Below, piece by piece: positions 3-60,920 of a DNA stretch of 64,000 bases. Every line of letters begins with the position of its first letter. Position 1 is the first letter of the stretch. Both the position numbers and the translations under genes were made by a program. The stretch comes from Candidatus Sulfotelmatobacter sp. (GTDB taxonomy: Bacteria; Acidobacteriota; Terriglobia; Terriglobales; Acidobacteriaceae): NCBI GenBank assembly GCA_030041215.1, contig JASHOH010000006.1:17775-81774 (forward strand), in the 5' to 3' direction. Under the pieces are notes generated by a model, which was not told the DNA's origin, did not search any database, and saw only the letters and a program-made list of their open reading frames with translations.

Positions 3-2132
3 CCCGCCTCGATGGCGGTGGCATTTCATCCGGATGAGGAGTACGTGGCTTTGGAAGTTCCCACTTCTCGCAAAGACGGCGAGAAGTGGGGCACCCAGGT
101 TTATATTGTCGCTTCCAAGCTGGCGAAAGAAACTGCCGAGAAATGCGGCTTCGTCAATCCCCGCGAGCTTGCGCACTTCGCCGGCCGCAAGCTCGAGCAC
201 CTGAATTTTCAGCATCCATTTCTCGATCGCAAAATTCTCGGCGTGCTCGCCGAATACGTCACGATGGACACGGGAACAGGCGTGGTTCATACTGCGCCGT
301 CGCATGGCGCTGAGGACTTCGCTACCGGCGTGAAGTACGGGCTCGATGCCACCAGCAACGTCGATGAAAAAGGCATCCTGCGCAATGGCCCGCCCGAATA
401 TACCGGCAAGCGCGTGTGGGACGCGAACCAGCCCATCATCGAGCTGCTCAAGAGCCGAGGAGCGCTACTGCATGAGGAAAAAACGGAGCACTCCTATCCG
501 CATTGCTGGCGCTGCCATAATCCTGTGATCTTCCGTGCCACCGAGCAGTGGTTTATCTCGATGGAAACACCTATGCCGGGCGGCAAGGGGAAAGACGACG
601 TTCTGCGCACGCACACGCTGGAAGACATCAAGCATGTGAAATGGGACCCGGCTTGGGGCGAAGAGCGTATGGCCAACATGATCGCCACGCGACCTGACTG
701 GTGCATTTCGCGGCAGCGCGTGTGGGGCGTGCCCATTGCCGTCTTTCTTTGCGAGGCCTGCGGCAAGCCACTGAACGACAAAACGATCAATCGAAAGGTA
801 GTCGAGCTGTTTCGGCGAGCAGGCGCGGATGCGTGGTTCATTGATGAACCATATTCTTTGCTTCCGGCCGGTGCGAAATGCCCTGATTGCGGCGGCACGA
901 AGTTTGAAAAAGAAACCGACATCTTCGACGTGTGGCTGGAATCGGGTGCAAGCTATCTCGCGTTGATCGACGATGAGCCTTCATATCCCTGGCCGTCTGA
1001 TGTTTATCTCGAAGGCGGCGATCAATACCGTGGATGGTTTCAATCTTCTCTGCTTTGCGGCGAGGGAACGCACAGTTCGCCTCCGTACAAGGGCGTGGTC
1101 ACGCCCGGATGGACGCTCGACGAAACAGGCCAGGCCCTGTCGAAGTCGCGCGGTAACGATGTCGATCCGGTCGACATAGCGAACCGCCTGGGCGGAGAAA
1201 TTGTGCGTTTGTGGGTGGCTTCGGTTGATTTCCGCGAAGACGTGGTCGGCTCCGAAAGGCTCATGCAGCGCGTGGCCGAGAACTACCGGGACATTCGCAA
1301 CCGATTTCGCTACATTCTGGGCAATTTGTATGACTTCGATCCGGCACAGGATGCGCTTGAGTTCGCTCGATTGCAGTCGCTCGATCAATACATGCTGCGG
1401 CAGACGGCGGCCTTCGCCTCAGACGTGCGCAGCTCGTACGAAGAGTTCGCGTTTCACAAGATCTATCACCGGCTGAATCACTTCTGCATCGTCGATCTGA
1501 GCGCGTTCTATTTTGATGTGCTCAAGGACCGGCTCTATACTTCTGCACCAAAATCAAAAGCGCGGCGCGCGGCACAAACGGCCATTTGGCGGATCGGAGA
1601 AGCTCTGGCACGTCTGCTCGCGCCCATCATGAGCTTTACCTGCGAAGAAGTCTGGGAGCATCTGCCGAAAGTTTCTGGTCGCAGCGAAAGCGTTCACTTG
1701 GCGCACTTCCCAGCCGCGAACGACATTCTCGGCGACCGGATTCCAGAGCAAGATGAACAACAATTCAAAGACTGGCAGACGCTGCGCTCGGTTCGCGATG
1801 AAGTGTTGAAAGCGCTCGAAGAAGCCCGCAACAACAAGTTGATCGGCACGGGACTTGAAGCGCAGATTGTGCTCAATGCCTCCGATCCTGTCTATTCCGC
1901 TCTAAAGCGTTATGAAGACCAGTTACGGTATCTTTTCATCGTGTCGGCGGTGCATCTGCACCGCGGTTCAGGAAACGGAACATCCGGCGTGCACGTCGAA
2001 GTGAAGAAAGCTGACGGACTGAAGTGCGAGCGCTGCTGGAATTATTCCATCCATGTCGGGGAGGACAAAAACTATCCCACGGTATGCGAACGTTGCAGCG
2101 CTGTACTGAAAAAAATCGAAGCACGCTGCTAA
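3..2132 (+). CDS. ileS: isoleucyl-tRNA synthetase, 5' truncated by window edge
   Basis: Charges tRNA-Ile with isoleucine in the cytoplasm. About 709 residues of a usual ~940 are present. The frame stays open to base 3, so the ATG at 12 is internal, not the start. Visible landmarks in order: the CP1 editing domain (TGTGVVHTAPSHGAEDF), the class I KMSKS variant LSKSRGN (about base 1138), the helical anticodon-binding region, and a C-terminal zinc site with CERCW and CERC pairs. Residues near the start (PTSRKDGEKWGTQ) look like an insertion, because they are encoded by a perfect hairpin resembling a repeat elsewhere in the window (see findings). Family identity is certain; the insertion is an inference. 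Confidence 0.97.
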   Translation, partial: PASMAVAFHPDEEYVALEVPTSRKDGEKWGTQVYIVASKLAKETAEKCGFVNPRELAHFAGRKLEHLNFQHPFLDRKILGVLAEYVTMDTGTGVVHTAPSHGAEDFATGVKYGLDATSNVDEKGILRNGPPEYTGKRVWDANQPIIELLKSRGALLHEEKTEHSYPHCWRCHNPVIFRATEQWFISMETPMPGGKGKDDVLRTHTLEDIKHVKWDPAWGEERMANMIATRPDWCISRQRVWGVPIAVFLCEACGKPLNDKTINRKVVELFRRAGADAWFIDEPYSLLPAGAKCPDCGGTKFEKETDIFDVWLESGASYLALIDDEPSYPWPSDVYLEGGDQYRGWFQSSLLCGEGTHSSPPYKGVVTPGWTLDETGQALSKSRGNDVDPVDIANRLGGEIVRLWVASVDFREDVVGSERLMQRVAENYRDIRNRFRYILGNLYDFDPAQDALEFARLQSLDQYMLRQTAAFASDVRSSYEEFAFHKIYHRLNHFCIVDLSAFYFDVLKDRLYTSAPKSKARRAAQTAIWRIGEALARLLAPIMSFTCEEVWEHLPKVSGRSESVHLAHFPAANDILGDRIPEQDEQQFKDWQTLRSVRDEVLKALEEARNNKLIGTGLEAQIVLNASDPVYSALKRYEDQLRYLFIVSAVHLHRGSGNGTSGVHVEVKKADGLKCERCWNYSIHVGEDKNYPTVCERCSAVLKKIEARC
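59..98 (+). repeat. palindromic element inside ileS
   Basis: Bases 60-71 (CCCACTTCTCGC) are perfectly complementary to 79-90 (GCGAGAAGTGGG) around a 7-nt loop, followed by GCACCC. The same layout occurs between bioY and mqnD (55274-55310). The two stems differ by a compensatory G-C to T-A change. Here the element lies in frame and would add about 13 codons. Confidence 0.75.
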
Positions 2133-3470: not shown

Positions 3471-3642
3471 GTCATGCCGAACGTGGCGAAAGCCGCGAGG
3501 GGACCTTAAATGAGCCGGAAGCGTTCGTGCTGTGAGCGCCAATTGCCACGCGGCATGCAGAGAAAAGGTTCTTTGCCGCGCCGACGCCGATTGACGTGCC
3601 TCGTAAAGTCCCTCCGAGAGCTGACGCTCTCGTCGGGATGAC
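3471..3642 (-). repeat. MITE-like palindromic element, left copy flanking korAB
   Basis: About 172 bp bounded by near-perfect terminal inverted repeats (GTCATGCCGA and TCGGGATGAC). It carries a hairpin module at each end (GAGAGCTGACGCTCTC; CGTGGCGAAAGCCGCG). Its reverse complement aligns along its whole length with 6751-6921, so the two copies are inverted around korAB. Confidence 0.8.
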
Positions 3643-3659
3643 ATTGTTGAAAGAGCACA

Positions 3660-6639: not shown

Positions 6640-6750
6640 CGCGGCTGAGGCCGAGCGTCGCGGCAAATCGCGCGCCGGAAGCGGCCAGGAACCTAAGTCG
6701 AAACCACCCGATGTCGTCAGAATTAGTCGAATCTCATCAATCTTCACGAT

Positions 6751-6921
6751 GTCATCCCGACGAGAGCGATAGCTCTCGGAGGAACTTATGATACGTTTCA
6801 AGCGGCATCGGCGCGGGAAAGAACGCCTCTATGCATGCAGCGGGGCAACTCCCGTCCGCGGCGCAAACTCCTCCGGCTCACGTACGGTCCCACTCGCGGC
6901 GATAGCCGCGTTCGGGATGAC
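6751..6921 (+). repeat. MITE-like palindromic element, right copy flanking korAB
   Basis: A 171-bp element with ends GTCATCCCGA and TCGGGATGAC (exact terminal inverted repeats), a left hairpin (CGAGAGCGATAGCTCTCG) and a right hairpin (TCGCGGCGATAGCCGCG). The first 34 bases match the reverse complement of the 3642 end with about three differences, and similarity continues through the interior. Confidence 0.82.
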
Positions 6922-47944: not shown

Positions 47945-48022
47945 CGCTCCGCAGTCGGCTTCAAGAAGCAAGGTCATGATCGCGCAAACCCAAATAGCTC
48001 AGCCGCCAGAAATACAAATGTA

Positions 48023-48066
48023 GGGACAGCCGCCCCCGGCTGTCCGGCAGAGCGAAGCTCGGCAGC
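48023..48066 (+). repeat. 44-bp inverted repeat, left copy around the Rieske gene
   Basis: Contains two hairpins: GACAGCCG with CGGCTGTC, and GAGC-GAA-GCTC. Matches the reverse complement of 48411-48454 in 42 of 44 positions. Followed by TTTTTT, so it may also terminate nuoB transcripts. Confidence 0.85.
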
Positions 48067-48410: not shown

Positions 48411-48454
48411 GCTGCCGAGCTTCGCTCGGCCGGACAGCCGAGGGCGGCTGTCCC
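48411..48454 (-). repeat. 44-bp inverted repeat, right copy around the Rieske gene
   Basis: Hairpins CCGAGC-TTC-GCTCGG and GGACAGCC ... GGCTGTCC. Reverse complement differs from 48023-48066 at two positions only. Confidence 0.85.
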
Positions 48455-48482
48455 TGCATGTGTCTTATTAATATCGGCTTCT

Positions 48483-51988: not shown

Positions 51989-52070
51989 GAAGCAAGAAGC
52001 CGACAGCTTTCAGCCGTTAGCTCTCGGCAGATCGGCTGATGTCCGAAAGCTGACAGCTGATAGCTGCTGC
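51989..52070. repeat. AGCTNNN heptad inverted-repeat element between HD-GYP and DUF1800 genes
   Basis: Left arm AGCCGAC AGCTTTC AGCCGTT AGCTCTC. Right arm GGCTGAT GTCCGAA AGCTGAC AGCTGAT AGCTGCT. It ends on the base before the HD-GYP stop codon. Confidence 0.72.
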
Positions 52071-53536: not shown

Positions 53537-54229
53537 TTAGAAATGCTCTCTCAGCTCCGCAAATTTCCCCACAATCAGCAGCTTCTGCGATTCCGGAGCG
53601 GCCGCTAATTCTTCATGCTCGAGAATCCACGTGTCCCCGTGCGGAATAAACACCGCGTGCAAACCCGCAGCCAGCGCGGGATTAATATCTGACTTCGGGC
53701 TGTTCCCGACCATCCACGTGCAGTGGCGGGCGAAATCATGCTTTTCCATCAATACGTGATACGTTGCCGCATTTTTCTCGGGAACGATTTCCGTGACGGC
53801 AAAGTAATGTTTCAGCCCTGAGCGCTCGATCTTGCCGTTCTGCTCTGCCTGCGCGCCCTTGGTCACCAGAATCAATTTGTGCCTCGCCGAAAGATACTCA
53901 AGCGTTTCAGGGACTTCGGGGAGCATCTCAATGGGATGATTTTCAATGCTGCGTGCGAAGCTGAGAATTTGCGCGTGCAACTCGGGCGTGACTGGATGCG
54001 GGCTCAGGCGTTCGAATGTATCCACCAGCGCGTGCGAAAAACTGTGCAGACCGTATCCGTGCTTTACGATACACTCGCGCTCCACGTCATTGAGCACCTC
54101 GCGCACCTGCTCGGGAGTGAATTCGTGATGGTTGAGAAAGGAAATGAACTTGGCAATCGCTCGCTCGAAATAGACATTGTTCTCCCAGAGCGTGTCATCG
54201 GCGTCGATGAGGAGAGTTTGGGAAAGCAA
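53537..54229 (-). CDS. HAD-superfamily hydrolase
   Basis: 230 residues. Motif I is LLIDADDTLWENN (nucleophile and acid/base Asp), motif II VTKG, motif III Lys region near SGLKHYF, motif IV VGNSPKSDINPALAAG. This is the phosphoglycolate-phosphatase/nucleotidase-like C1-cap group. The only start before motif I is TTG at 54229, and it lies at the first base of a heptad repeat arm, with no Shine-Dalgarno. The repeat may have replaced the original start. Substrate unknown. Confidence 0.85.
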   Translation of the reverse strand: MLSQTLLIDADDTLWENNVYFERAIAKFISFLNHHEFTPEQVREVLNDVERECIVKHGYGLHSFSHALVDTFERLSPHPVTPELHAQILSFARSIENHPIEMLPEVPETLEYLSARHKLILVTKGAQAEQNGKIERSGLKHYFAVTEIVPEKNAATYHVLMEKHDFARHCTWMVGNSPKSDINPALAAGLHAVFIPHGDTWILEHEELAAAPESQKLLIVGKFAELREHF

Positions 54230-54373
54230 GCTGTTAGTTCTTAGCCTTTAGCTCTTAGCTCAACCTCTTGGAATATTAAGTCCGCGCCGCAGGACATTTG
54301 TTGCAGTGGAGATTCGCGATCAAGTACGCGCAAAAATAAAAAGCTAAAGACCGAGAGCTAAAGGCTAAGAGCT
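54228..54373. repeat. 146-bp solo heptad inverted-repeat element
   Basis: Left arm AGCTGTT AGTTCTT AGCCTTT AGCTCTT AGCTCAA (from 54229). Right arm AAAAGCT AAAGACC GAGAGCT AAAGGCT AAGAGCT (54338-54372). A stretch of about 20 bases in the left arm matches the reverse complement of the right arm of the 59309-59768 cassette exactly. About 74 bp of unrelated sequence separates the arms. Confidence 0.78.
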
Positions 54374-54376
54374 TCT

Positions 54377-55258
54377 TCACACCCACTCCACTCTCGCTTC
54401 CGGCCCGATGATCCCCGCTTTGTGCCCCATATCGAGCAAACGCGCCACGGCCTCGCGGCCGTCGGGGCCGTAATCGAGTGTGCGCTCGTTCACGTACATC
54501 CCGACGAATCGATCGGCGGTAGGTGTGTCGAGATCGCGCGCAAACTGCATGGCGTAAGCCAAGGCCTCGTCACGATGATCAAGCGCATACTGAATGCTCT
54601 CACGCAGCGCGCCGGTAACGGTTGATATCAGTTGCCGGCCAAGCGCGCGTCGAATGGCGTTACCTCCCAAGGGCAGTGGCAAACCAGTCATTTTCTGCCA
54701 CCAGCGGCCGAGATCGACAATGCGATGCAGCCCGGCCTTGTCGTACGTAAGCTGTCCTTCATGAATGATCAGCCCTGCTTCATACTTGCCTTCGAGGACA
54801 AGCGGAATGATCTGATCGAAGGGCACGACTTCGGTTTCCACCCCGGGAGCAAAAAGTTGCAGCGCCAAGTATGCCGTTGTCAGTTTTCCGGGAACTGCGA
54901 TGCGCCTGTCTTTTATTTCAAGCTGCGTAAACGGGCGCGGCGAGACAATCATCGGCCCATAGCCTTCGCCGACGCTGCCGCCGCACGACATCAGCGCGTA
55001 CAAATCCTGAATATAAGGGTAAGCGTGAAATGAAATCGCCGTCACATCGTAGACGCCCTCGCGCGCCTTCTGATTCAGCGTTTCGATATCGCAGAGCGTA
55101 TGGGTAAATCGCAGCCCCGGCACGCGAACTTTATTCGTTGCCAGCGCGTAGAACATGAACGCGTCGTCGGAATCCGGGCTATGTGCGATCGTGATCTCGC
55201 GGACGCCTGCGGGAGAATTCGTCCGCGTTGTTTCGTGCTCGGAAACTACGGTCATCAC
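54377..55258 (-). CDS. mqnD: 1,4-dihydroxy-6-naphthoate synthase (futalosine pathway)
   Basis: 293 residues. MqnD catalyses the last recognised step of the futalosine menaquinone route, making 1,4-dihydroxy-6-naphthoate. It has the periplasmic-binding-like fold with HSPDSDDAFMFYALATNKV near the N terminus and LIIHEGQLTYDKAGLHRIVD. Residues that match family catalytic positions are present, but no single one can be proved here. MqnA and MqnC are encoded about 6 kb downstream on the other strand, so the pathway is split within this window. The start is not overlapped; a hairpin repeat lies just upstream. Confidence 0.92.
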   Translation of the reverse strand: MMTVVSEHETTRTNSPAGVREITIAHSPDSDDAFMFYALATNKVRVPGLRFTHTLCDIETLNQKAREGVYDVTAISFHAYPYIQDLYALMSCGGSVGEGYGPMIVSPRPFTQLEIKDRRIAVPGKLTTAYLALQLFAPGVETEVVPFDQIIPLVLEGKYEAGLIIHEGQLTYDKAGLHRIVDLGRWWQKMTGLPLPLGGNAIRRALGRQLISTVTGALRESIQYALDHRDEALAYAMQFARDLDTPTADRFVGMYVNERTLDYGPDGREAVARLLDMGHKAGIIGPEARVEWV

Positions 55259-55273
55259 TGAACTCCAACCTGG

Positions 55274-55310
55274 GGTGCCCCACGTCTCGCATCTGTTGCG
55301 AGACGTGGGA
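55274..55310 (-). repeat. hairpin repeat between bioY and mqnD
   Basis: CCCACGTCTCGCA (55279-55291) pairs perfectly with TGCGAGACGTGGG (55297-55309), 13 bp, 5-nt loop. The reverse complement matches the ileS-internal element (59-98) including the flanking GCACCC. Confidence 0.8.
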
Positions 55311-55316
55311 CTATCC

Positions 55317-55901
55317 CTACAAGCTTCTCTTCCTCTGCCACTGCACCGCGATTCCCGCCGCCATCATGACCTTGATCACTTCGGCGAACACAAACCAGTA
55401 CAGTCCCCAGCGAAAGGCCTGCGCCAGAGAATGCGTCAGAGCGGCCAGCCAGGCGAGACCTGCGGTAAACAGGACTATCTCGCCGAGAAAACCAGCGAAC
55501 GCCGCGCGGAGAAAGCTCTTGCGGCCGTGCTCCATCACGTAACCCGTGACAAACGCCACGAGAGGATACGCCAGCAGGAATCCACTGGTCGCGCCATGAA
55601 ACAGTTGCGCGATCCCTCCTGCTCCTGTGGGGCTGAACACCGGCAGTCCAGCCGCTCCTTCGGCCAGATACAGCGCCATCGCGGCAAATCCGCGGCGGCT
55701 GCCGAGCAGCAAGCCTACAAGCAGCACGCCAAAGTTTTGCACCGTCAACGGCACTGGGGTGAACGGCAAAGGAATCGAAACTCGCGCACACAAAGCAACC
55801 AGCAAACTGCCACCAACAATCAACCCAAAATTCCGCGCCCCCTCCGAAATGAAGAGACGCGCTCGCTCGCTCGTCAAATTTTGCATCGCAGATTTGGCCA
55901 T
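55317..55901 (-). CDS. bioY: biotin transporter BioY
   Basis: 194 residues, six membrane helices. The S-component of an ECF-type biotin importer, which often works alone or with EcfAT. It has the family motifs LPFTPVPLTVQNFGVLLVG (substrate region) and LYLAEGAAGLPVFSPTGAGG. GGAGAG precedes the ATG. A 53-residue single-helix protein is encoded 24 bp upstream. No biotin synthesis or ECF ATPase gene is near. Confidence 0.93.
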   Translation of the reverse strand: MAKSAMQNLTSERARLFISEGARNFGLIVGGSLLVALCARVSIPLPFTPVPLTVQNFGVLLVGLLLGSRRGFAAMALYLAEGAAGLPVFSPTGAGGIAQLFHGATSGFLLAYPLVAFVTGYVMEHGRKSFLRAAFAGFLGEIVLFTAGLAWLAALTHSLAQAFRWGLYWFVFAEVIKVMMAAGIAVQWQRKRSL

Positions 55902-59239: not shown

Positions 59240-59308
59240 TGTTTCCTCAATTCTTCCGAAGCTAGCACGAATGGGAGCGATGCAACAAGTAACGGGAGAA
59301 AAGTTCGA

Positions 59309-59768
59309 AGCTTTTAGCTCTTAGCCTTTAGCTCTTAGCTCCGGAACCTCCACATGCTTGGTCATTTTCAATCGCGCTGAAAAAGCAGAGAGCATTCGCA
59401 TCACTTCGTCCAACAGCAGGCGCAGGCGATCGAAATCACCGGTTTTCAGATATCCAAGATCTTTAGACAAAAGCAAGTGATAGGACAGCTCTGCACCCGA
59501 CCCCATTGCGATTTGGACGAATCGTCCCATCTCACCGTCAGATCGTCGGCCACAACCTTCCGCCAGATTAGCGGCAATGGATGCCGAAGCGCGGCGTACC
59601 TGACTCGTCAGTCCAAAGCGTTCGTCGTTGGGAAATGCTTGCGTCGTTCTATAAATTTCTAAAGCGAGTCGGTGCGCTTTTTCCCAAACCGCTAAGTCTC
59701 GATAATTCCTCATGGAGTTCCTCGCAGTGCTTGAGCTAAAGGCTAAGAACTAACAGCTAAAAGCTCTT
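59309..59768. mobile_element. 460-bp cassette: four-helix-bundle gene between heptad inverted repeats
   Basis: Left arm AGCTTTT AGCTCTT AGCCTTT AGCTCTT AGCTCCG (59309-59343). Right arm AGCTAAA GGCTAAG AACTAAC AGCTAAA AGCTCTT (59734-59768). The arms are inverted, and enclose a single gene. The arms supply the four-helix-bundle stop and the dprA stop. Confidence 0.65.
59321..59713 (-). CDS. four-helix-bundle protein (S23/IVP-like)
   Basis: 130 residues of the family encoded inside 23S rRNA intervening sequences (IVP) and found widely as stand-alone genes; related to Avd of diversity-generating retroelements. The conserved opening YRDLAVWEKAHRLALEIYR and the motif SQVRRASASIAANLAEGCGR are intact. 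The last residues (ELRAKG, stop) are encoded by the heptad repeat. The gene separates dprA from topA, which are normally adjacent, suggesting insertion of a gene-plus-arms unit. Function of the protein is not established. Confidence 0.88.
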   Translation of the reverse strand: MRNYRDLAVWEKAHRLALEIYRTTQAFPNDERFGLTSQVRRASASIAANLAEGCGRRSDGEMGRFVQIAMGSGAELSYHLLLSKDLGYLKTGDFDRLRLLLDEVMRMLSAFSARLKMTKHVEVPELRAKG

Positions 59769-60920
59769 CACAAAATTCTTTCCCGGCATCTGCTTCACTT
59801 TGCCGGCCAGCTCCAACTCGAACAGGGCCGCGAAGATTTCTGAAGACGACATTTCCGTCTCCAGCTTTTCCACCAGTTCATCAATGTGGGTGGCTTCGTC
59901 GGCCTTGAGCAGGCCCAGGATTCGCTTCTCGTGAGGAGGTAACCCGTCTTCCGGAAATAGAGATGATGTTGTGTGGACCTGGGATTCACCGCCCATCGTG
60001 GGCGTGAGCGCAAGTTTTACTTCCGGCGGCAGATCTTCCCAAACGTCTTCCCAGGTCGCCACCAGCTTTGCGCCTTGTTTTATCAGCGTGTTAGGCCCCC
60101 AGGAGTTCTTATTCGTTACGTTGCCAGGAACGGCAAACACATCACGATTTTGTTCGAGCGCGCAGCGGGCCGTAATACGTGTTCCGGAATATTCGCCCGC
60201 TTCGACGACCAGCACCCCCACTGACATGCCGCTCAAAATTCGATTGCGTATCGGAAAATTCTGCGGCGCCGCAAACGTTCCCAACGGAAACTCTGAAATA
60301 ATCGCTCCGCCCAGCGCCAGAATCTGCTCCGCCAAGCGCGAATTTTCCTTCGGATAAATCACGTCCACACCCGTGCCAAACACCGCGATAGTCTTACCCT
60401 TCGCCGCGATCGCCCCCCGATGGCTCGCCGTATCAACGCCGCGAGCCATACCACTAATAATGACCAGTCCCTGGTTCGCCAGATCGCAGGCCAACCGCTC
60501 CGCCATGCCAGATCCGTACGGTGTAGGATGCCGCGTGCCGACCATCGCAATTCCCGGCTGCGACAGCAACTCTGCGTTTCCGCGCACGTATAGCACCAGT
60601 GGAGGATCGTAAATTTCTTTCAAGCGCGGCGGATATGTTGGATCTTCCAGCGAGGCGACCGTGATTTTCTCCGCAGCTGCTTTGGCAATTTCTTCTCGCG
60701 CCAGCTCCGCCGATTTTCCTGTGGCAATCGCTTGCGCCGAGACGGCCTGAATTCCAGTCCCTTCCAGTTCGGTCAGCGACGCCCGAAAAACAGCTTCGGG
60801 TCCGCCAAGGTGCTCAACCAGTTTTCGGGCTTTCGTCGGCCCGAGTCCGGGAGTGAGGGTGAGCGCAAGCCACTCTAAAAGGTGCGTTGCAGATGGCGAT
60901 GCCAGGGCGGCGGTTGTCAT
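59757..60920 (-). CDS. dprA: DNA-processing protein A
   Basis: About 387 residues from ATG 60920. Loads RecA onto incoming single-stranded DNA in natural transformation. The Rossmann-like core has GTRHPTPYGSGMAERLACDL, SGMARGVDTASHRGAI, GTGVDVIYPKEN and EFPLGTFAAPQNFPIRNR. The C-terminal winged helix (EKRILGLLKADEATHIDELV) is complete. The last residues (KSF, TAG) come from the heptad repeat arm. It is divergent from mqnA. Confidence 0.95.
   Translation of the reverse strand: MTTAALASPSATHLLEWLALTLTPGLGPTKARKLVEHLGGPEAVFRASLTELEGTGIQAVSAQAIATGKSAELAREEIAKAAAEKITVASLEDPTYPPRLKEIYDPPLVLYVRGNAELLSQPGIAMVGTRHPTPYGSGMAERLACDLANQGLVIISGMARGVDTASHRGAIAAKGKTIAVFGTGVDVIYPKENSRLAEQILALGGAIISEFPLGTFAAPQNFPIRNRILSGMSVGVLVVEAGEYSGTRITARCALEQNRDVFAVPGNVTNKNSWGPNTLIKQGAKLVATWEDVWEDLPPEVKLALTPTMGGESQVHTTSSLFPEDGLPPHEKRILGLLKADEATHIDELVEKLETEMSSSEIFAALFELELAGKVKQMPGKNFVKSF

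Follow-up and report, generated by a model that had tools for sequence, protein, structure and literature searches.

A REP-like, RAYT-associated hairpin repeat in frame in ileS and other genes of Candidatus Sulfotelmatobacter

The ileS gene of this Candidatus Sulfotelmatobacter genome contains a palindrome that lies in frame with the coding sequence, and the locus raises the question of what this sequence is and how an essential gene came to carry it. We examined it within the window (the whole 64,000-nucleotide stretch of DNA analysed), in the genome from which the window comes (G000; 5.03 Mb in 251 contigs), and in related genomes. The features concerned are as follows, in window coordinates.

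3 to 2132, + strand: ileS, whose 5' part lies beyond the window (whole gene L064:1543-4407); 954 aa, with Pfam domains tRNA-synt_1 (residues 28-659), Anticodon_1 and zf-FPG_IleRS.
57 to 98, + strand: codons VPTSRKDGEKWGTQ in place of the SGGE of relatives, at the turn between two editing-domain strands.
59 to 97, + strand: the whole REP-like element, 39 nt, in frame in ileS and reading TCCCACTTCTCGC-AAAGACG-GCGAGAAGTGGG-GCACCCA; a 64.6-bit covariance-model match at G000:C171:17833-17871.
60 to 71, + strand: 5' stem arm CCCACTTCTCGC, in perfect 12-bp pairing with 79-90.
72 to 78, + strand: loop AAAGACG, 7 nt.
79 to 90, + strand: 3' stem arm, pairing with 60-71.
91 to 96, + strand: conserved tail GCACCC; on the opposite strand, GGGTGC 5' of the hairpin.
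55272 to 55310, - strand: second copy, extragenic, between bioY (55317-55901, - strand) and an mqnD-like gene (54377-55258, - strand).

The two window copies have an identical tail, and the second has a G-C pair where the ileS stem has T-A; the preliminary description had reported a perfect 12-bp stem and GCACCC common to both hairpins, with stems differing by one compensatory pair, and the sequence bears this out. The copies share the consensus TCCCACTTCTCGCAAAAGCGGCGAGAAGTGGGGCACCCC. Among 44 copies every position of the GCACCC tail is kept in at least 40, and the flanks beyond the 39-nt unit are approximately random. The 12 stem pairs are formed in 96.2% of cells in an alignment of 42 copies, compared with 36–59% in slid-pairing controls, and five of the pairs show changes on both sides. 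We found 54 near-canonical copies in the genome, 45 of them exactly 39 nt long and seven of 43 nt, and 51 of the 54 are open in all six reading frames. We considered six-frame openness as a special adaptation and rejected it, as shuffled hairpins of matching composition are also open in 33% of cases; the open frames permit survival within genes and are not exceptional for such hairpins. No Rfam match was found at the site of the ileS element, and plasmid records gave no match to the repeat.

Because the pattern GCGAGANGTGGGGCACCC, with up to three mismatches, has 38 + 47 matches (85) in the genome and the reversed control 2 + 2 (4), the repeat is present far above chance. A covariance model was trained on 42 copies, including the one in ileS, and gives the latter 64.6 bits (E 3.7e-13). 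With the same model (E 1e-5) the repeat was detected in all 45 genomes of the genus, with from 2 to at least 66 matches each. Of 16 other genera in the family, nine yield a few matches; the order's other family yields none, and the 26 genomes from other orders of the class yield one match, in a single genome. Approximately 80% of the 54 copies in the home genome are extragenic, with no coding frame across the copy; likewise, of 20 regions read around strong copies in other genomes, about 17 are free of any coding frame across the copy and about three are intragenic. The window also contains other repeats: an inverted 42-nt repeat (3606-3647 and 6746-6787), 90% complementary and itself palindromic, flanks korAB-like genes, and other dispersed families, of the GTAGGGACAGCC...GGCTGTCC and AGCTTTTAGCTCTTAGCC types, lie at 48011-48066, 48411-48466, 51997-52030, 54228-54261, 59294-59341 and 59733-59769.

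We compared IleS across approximately 105 relatives (53–89% identical), and these read VALES-GGEVYIVA or have a similar short turn at the site. The home IleS reads VALEVPTSRKDGEKWGTQVYIVA, a net gain of 30 nt (10 residues) over the empty relatives. G009 is the one relative with an insert at this position, VALEVPTSRKSGETWGTQDGEVFIVA, which is in the reading frame used by the home copy and adds exactly 39 nt (13 residues); stem pair 7:27 is G-C in its insert and T-A in the home copy. A further 9 nt (DGE) seem to have been lost from the home copy. The in-frame insertion proposed in the preliminary description thus stands, and the inserted residues did not turn up, as would have refuted it, in the IleS of these approximately 105 relatives; the proposed size of 13 residues holds for G009 and has to be corrected to a net ten here. 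The solved IleRS structure 8c9e has a short editing-domain turn at this position, and a predicted model of the domain (pLDDT 87.5, pTM 0.85) places the insert between strands 58-65 and 76-82, as a loop that is itself modelled with low confidence. The model suggests that the IleRS fold is probably kept despite the insert.

A search for copies inside other genes, which the same description had recommended, shows that ileS is not a solitary case. Eleven of the 54 copies (about 20%) lie in frame inside genes, with coding composition to either side of the copy, and Pfam or NCBIfam identifies the hosts as IleS, an FG-GAP/UnbV protein, a GT2 glycosyltransferase, UbiD (antisense), a double aldehyde dehydrogenase, a GNAT acetyltransferase, melibiase, hydantoinase B, an ABC-F protein (antisense), DUF488 and RecN. 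Divergent forms of the repeat are present in AlaS and in a penicillin-acylase-like protein. Insertions occur on both strands and in each of the three sense frames (PTSRKxGEKWGTP, HFSQKxREVGHP and PLLAxAARSGAP). Avoidance of genes by the 43-nt form was not supported (none of seven copies in genes, versus 11 of 45 for the 39-nt form; p 0.32). For DUF488, hydantoinase B, GNAT and melibiase, all sampled relatives (five, five, seven and three respectively) are empty, and filled and empty versions differ by a net 36 to 42 nt. For GT2, UnbV, AlaS and RecN, repeat-derived peptides occupy the same loop in several relatives and other relatives are empty; the GT2 site is filled in one and empty in the other of two sister genomes (G036 and G029), and many species have inserts at the AlaS, GT2 and UnbV sites. 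Eight genomes have GT2 inserts at a shared site; across these eight inserts pairing is intact at 96.9%, and both partners have changed in three of the pairs.

A second repeat, of type CCCTTCGACTTCGCTCAGGGCAGG, is nested in the first hairpin, in or next to the stem, at L287 (AlaS of G015), L271 (GT2 of G036), L036, L042 and L052; the nested copies of AlaS and GT2 keep the reading frame. In relatives, the RecN (L293, L299, L301) and UbiD (L258, L266, L270) loops also hold different peptides that recur, GRAALQGRVSG and AVRPGRSPAAPGT among them, and that look as if encoded by other repeat families, and in the C-terminal half of hydantoinase B (L187) the residues TELGKKHRSHRRSALRGRGRPRHM before VTVDFNGSD look like another in-frame insertion.

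The home genome has six genes for REP-associated tyrosine transposases (RAYTs; NF047646), five above the cut-off and one truncated. Two intact RAYT genes (L066 and L067) have 43-nt copies on both sides in inverted orientation, while the 39-nt form lies near only the truncated gene (L070) in this genome; on contig 29 of G014 a RAYT gene is bracketed by 39-nt copies. The arrangement that characterises a REPtron, a RAYT gene flanked by repeat copies, is therefore found with the 43-nt form at L066 and L067 and with the 39-nt form at G014:C29. The G014 RAYT gene itself holds an in-frame copy (L365:1301-1339; VVPRSRKTGETWGTPS). Across 37 genomes RAYT number correlates with copy number (rho 0.45, p 0.005), which may be explained by genome completeness; when the comparison is confined to the 20 genomes with a completeness of 90% or more, no such relation is seen (rho 0.21, p 0.38).

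The family of repeats with its covarying hairpin, the in-frame copies in identified genes, the empty sites of relatives and the repeat-flanked RAYT genes are best accounted for if the 39 nt in ileS are a REP-like, RAYT-associated, non-autonomous mobile hairpin whose length and open frames allow an inserted copy to persist in a surface loop, a reading to which we assign a probability of about 0.87. The HUH/tyrosine RAYTs of the same genome would probably have spread the repeat, acting on a single-stranded hairpin with a GGGTGC foot, much as RAYT action on single strands has been shown in vitro for other REPs (PMC8266576). Surviving copies would lie mostly between genes, with some in surface loops that tolerate indels, such as the editing-domain turn of IleRS. 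A unit of 39 nt, or 13 codons, that is open in six frames would lengthen the protein of any gene it lands in by about 13 residues without breaking the frame. Stems within genes could stay paired through template-switch (quasipalindrome) correction, through exchange with other copies, or through both; template switching between arms has been described in E. coli (PMC7202029) and proposed for RNA hairpins (PMC8794818). We infer mobilisation of the repeat and RAYT catalysis on it, as well as tolerance rather than function of the encoded peptides, any function of which would be equally conjectural, and the means by which pairing is kept up.

An alternative explanation is that the mobile hairpin has been domesticated as a coding module, such that the peptide, or a hairpin in mRNA or DNA, serves the host gene, for instance by pausing translation or supplying a useful loop, and selection retains it, with the GT2, UnbV or AlaS loop refilled repeatedly across the genus and pairing itself selected. 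The pairing and double-sided changes of the eight GT2 inserts are what such selection might produce, as is the filling of the AlaS, GT2 and UnbV sites in many species. We nonetheless consider it improbable. The host proteins are unrelated and receive the repeat in every sense frame and on both strands, several of the loops vary in length anyway, the filled and empty states flip even between the close sisters G036 and G029, and template switching can keep pairing without selection (PMC8794818, PMC7202029).

Two further explanations dispense with an inserted element in ileS, and we regard both as less credible than domestication. The repeat could have been misjoined into ileS during assembly or binning of a metagenome-assembled genome, and the named relatives are nearly all such genomes and repeats do cause misassembly; against this, the frame is intact, 39 nt is less than a read length, and an independent genome, G009, is filled at the same site in the same frame, which leaves an artefact very unlikely. 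Ordinary length variation of IleS that is palindromic by accident has even less to recommend it: some distant IleS, for example that of G051, do have longer turns at the site, but this reading is refuted by repeat copy number, a near-identical 39-mer being present tens of times elsewhere in the genome, with the model E value of 3.7e-13 given above.

Under the mobile-hairpin reading, the history of the filled ileS site can be asked about separately. In an ileS tree computed with the insert region left out, G009 groups with the empty G005 (support 1.0) and the home genome with the empty G008 (support 0.69), and the filled state is at odds with a simple tree. These groupings, and the differences in stem variant and loop between the two inserts, would agree with a hot spot that was hit twice independently, by members of different subfamilies. 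However, both inserts share a non-element GT before and CA after, the ancestral codon being TCN, and the ileS genes of G009 and G005 fall from about 90% identity up to residue 200 to 74% around the site, a drop that possibly reflects recombination; we therefore hold two insertions to be a possibility, though a less likely one than a single old insertion. The choice bears on history alone and not on the identity of the element. Because both histories are still in play, the compensatory pair distinguishing the two ileS inserts is not proof of selection, and we have dropped it as such; independent insertion, recombination or template switching would explain it too.

REPs are defined as short, palindromic, mutually similar sequences, with many copies per genome and usually extragenic (PMC12306157), and the repeat described here, with its 39 nt, 12-bp stem and 54 near-canonical, mostly extragenic copies, has these general properties. 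The tag of the GTAG superfamily is absent, the conserved end being GGGTGC/GCACCC, and that of the CGTC superfamily, which includes RPE-4 and RPE-6, is absent from both ends. Intragenic GTAG and CGTC REPs, including some in tRNA synthetase genes, have been described, and intragenic repeats of R. conorii match RPE-4 and RPE-6 (Di Nocera et al. 2013, PMC3733652). The resemblance to GTAG REP/RAYT REPtrons (PMC3733652; PMC8266576) extends to a short palindrome with a conserved foot, many mostly intergenic copies, flanking of RAYTs and intragenic copies, but the foot is GGGTGC, the 39-nt unit has a perfect 12-bp stem, the phylum is another, and filled and empty sites are here compared across a genus. 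The preliminary description likened the repeat to Rickettsia palindromic elements (RPEs). This is apt for its behaviour, a hairpin repeat inserted in frame in unrelated genes, essential ones among them, that relatives have empty, rather than as a statement of membership; the repeat lacks the CGTC tag of RPE-4 and RPE-6 (PMC3733652), the sole RPE sequence feature compared, belongs to a soil lineage and is associated with RAYTs.

Acidobacterial elements of the TIRYT/TIR kind (PMC3733652) and class 3 TnpA-REP (PMC6006769) come from the same phylum and transposase superfamily. The former source describes acidobacterial tyrosine transposases, Koribacter ORF1552 among others, flanked by TIRs of which some have GGGGWSAS; the foot GGGGTGCC fits this motif at seven of eight positions, with the outermost G in 57% of copies. 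Those TIRs are described there as long and mostly not repeated, and the class 3 foot is given in PMC6006769 as CnGA, both unlike the present repeat. We found no report of coding insertions for either in the accessible text of these two papers. The best reading is to file the repeat as a REP-like, RAYT-associated family that is RPE-like in action and not shown to be an RPE. Intragenic REPs have already been described, and it is the Sulfotelmatobacter family itself that is new; a search of an open-access library gave no paper on this repeat in Sulfotelmatobacter.

These observations indicate that, in a soil lineage, housekeeping proteins gain peptide loops from mobile hairpins, beyond the species in which coding palindromes have been described. 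The 44 congeneric genomes permit filled and empty sites to be compared directly, and this comparison makes two questions testable: by what steps RAYT-linked repeats insert, and whether selection or template switching maintains the pairing of intragenic copies.
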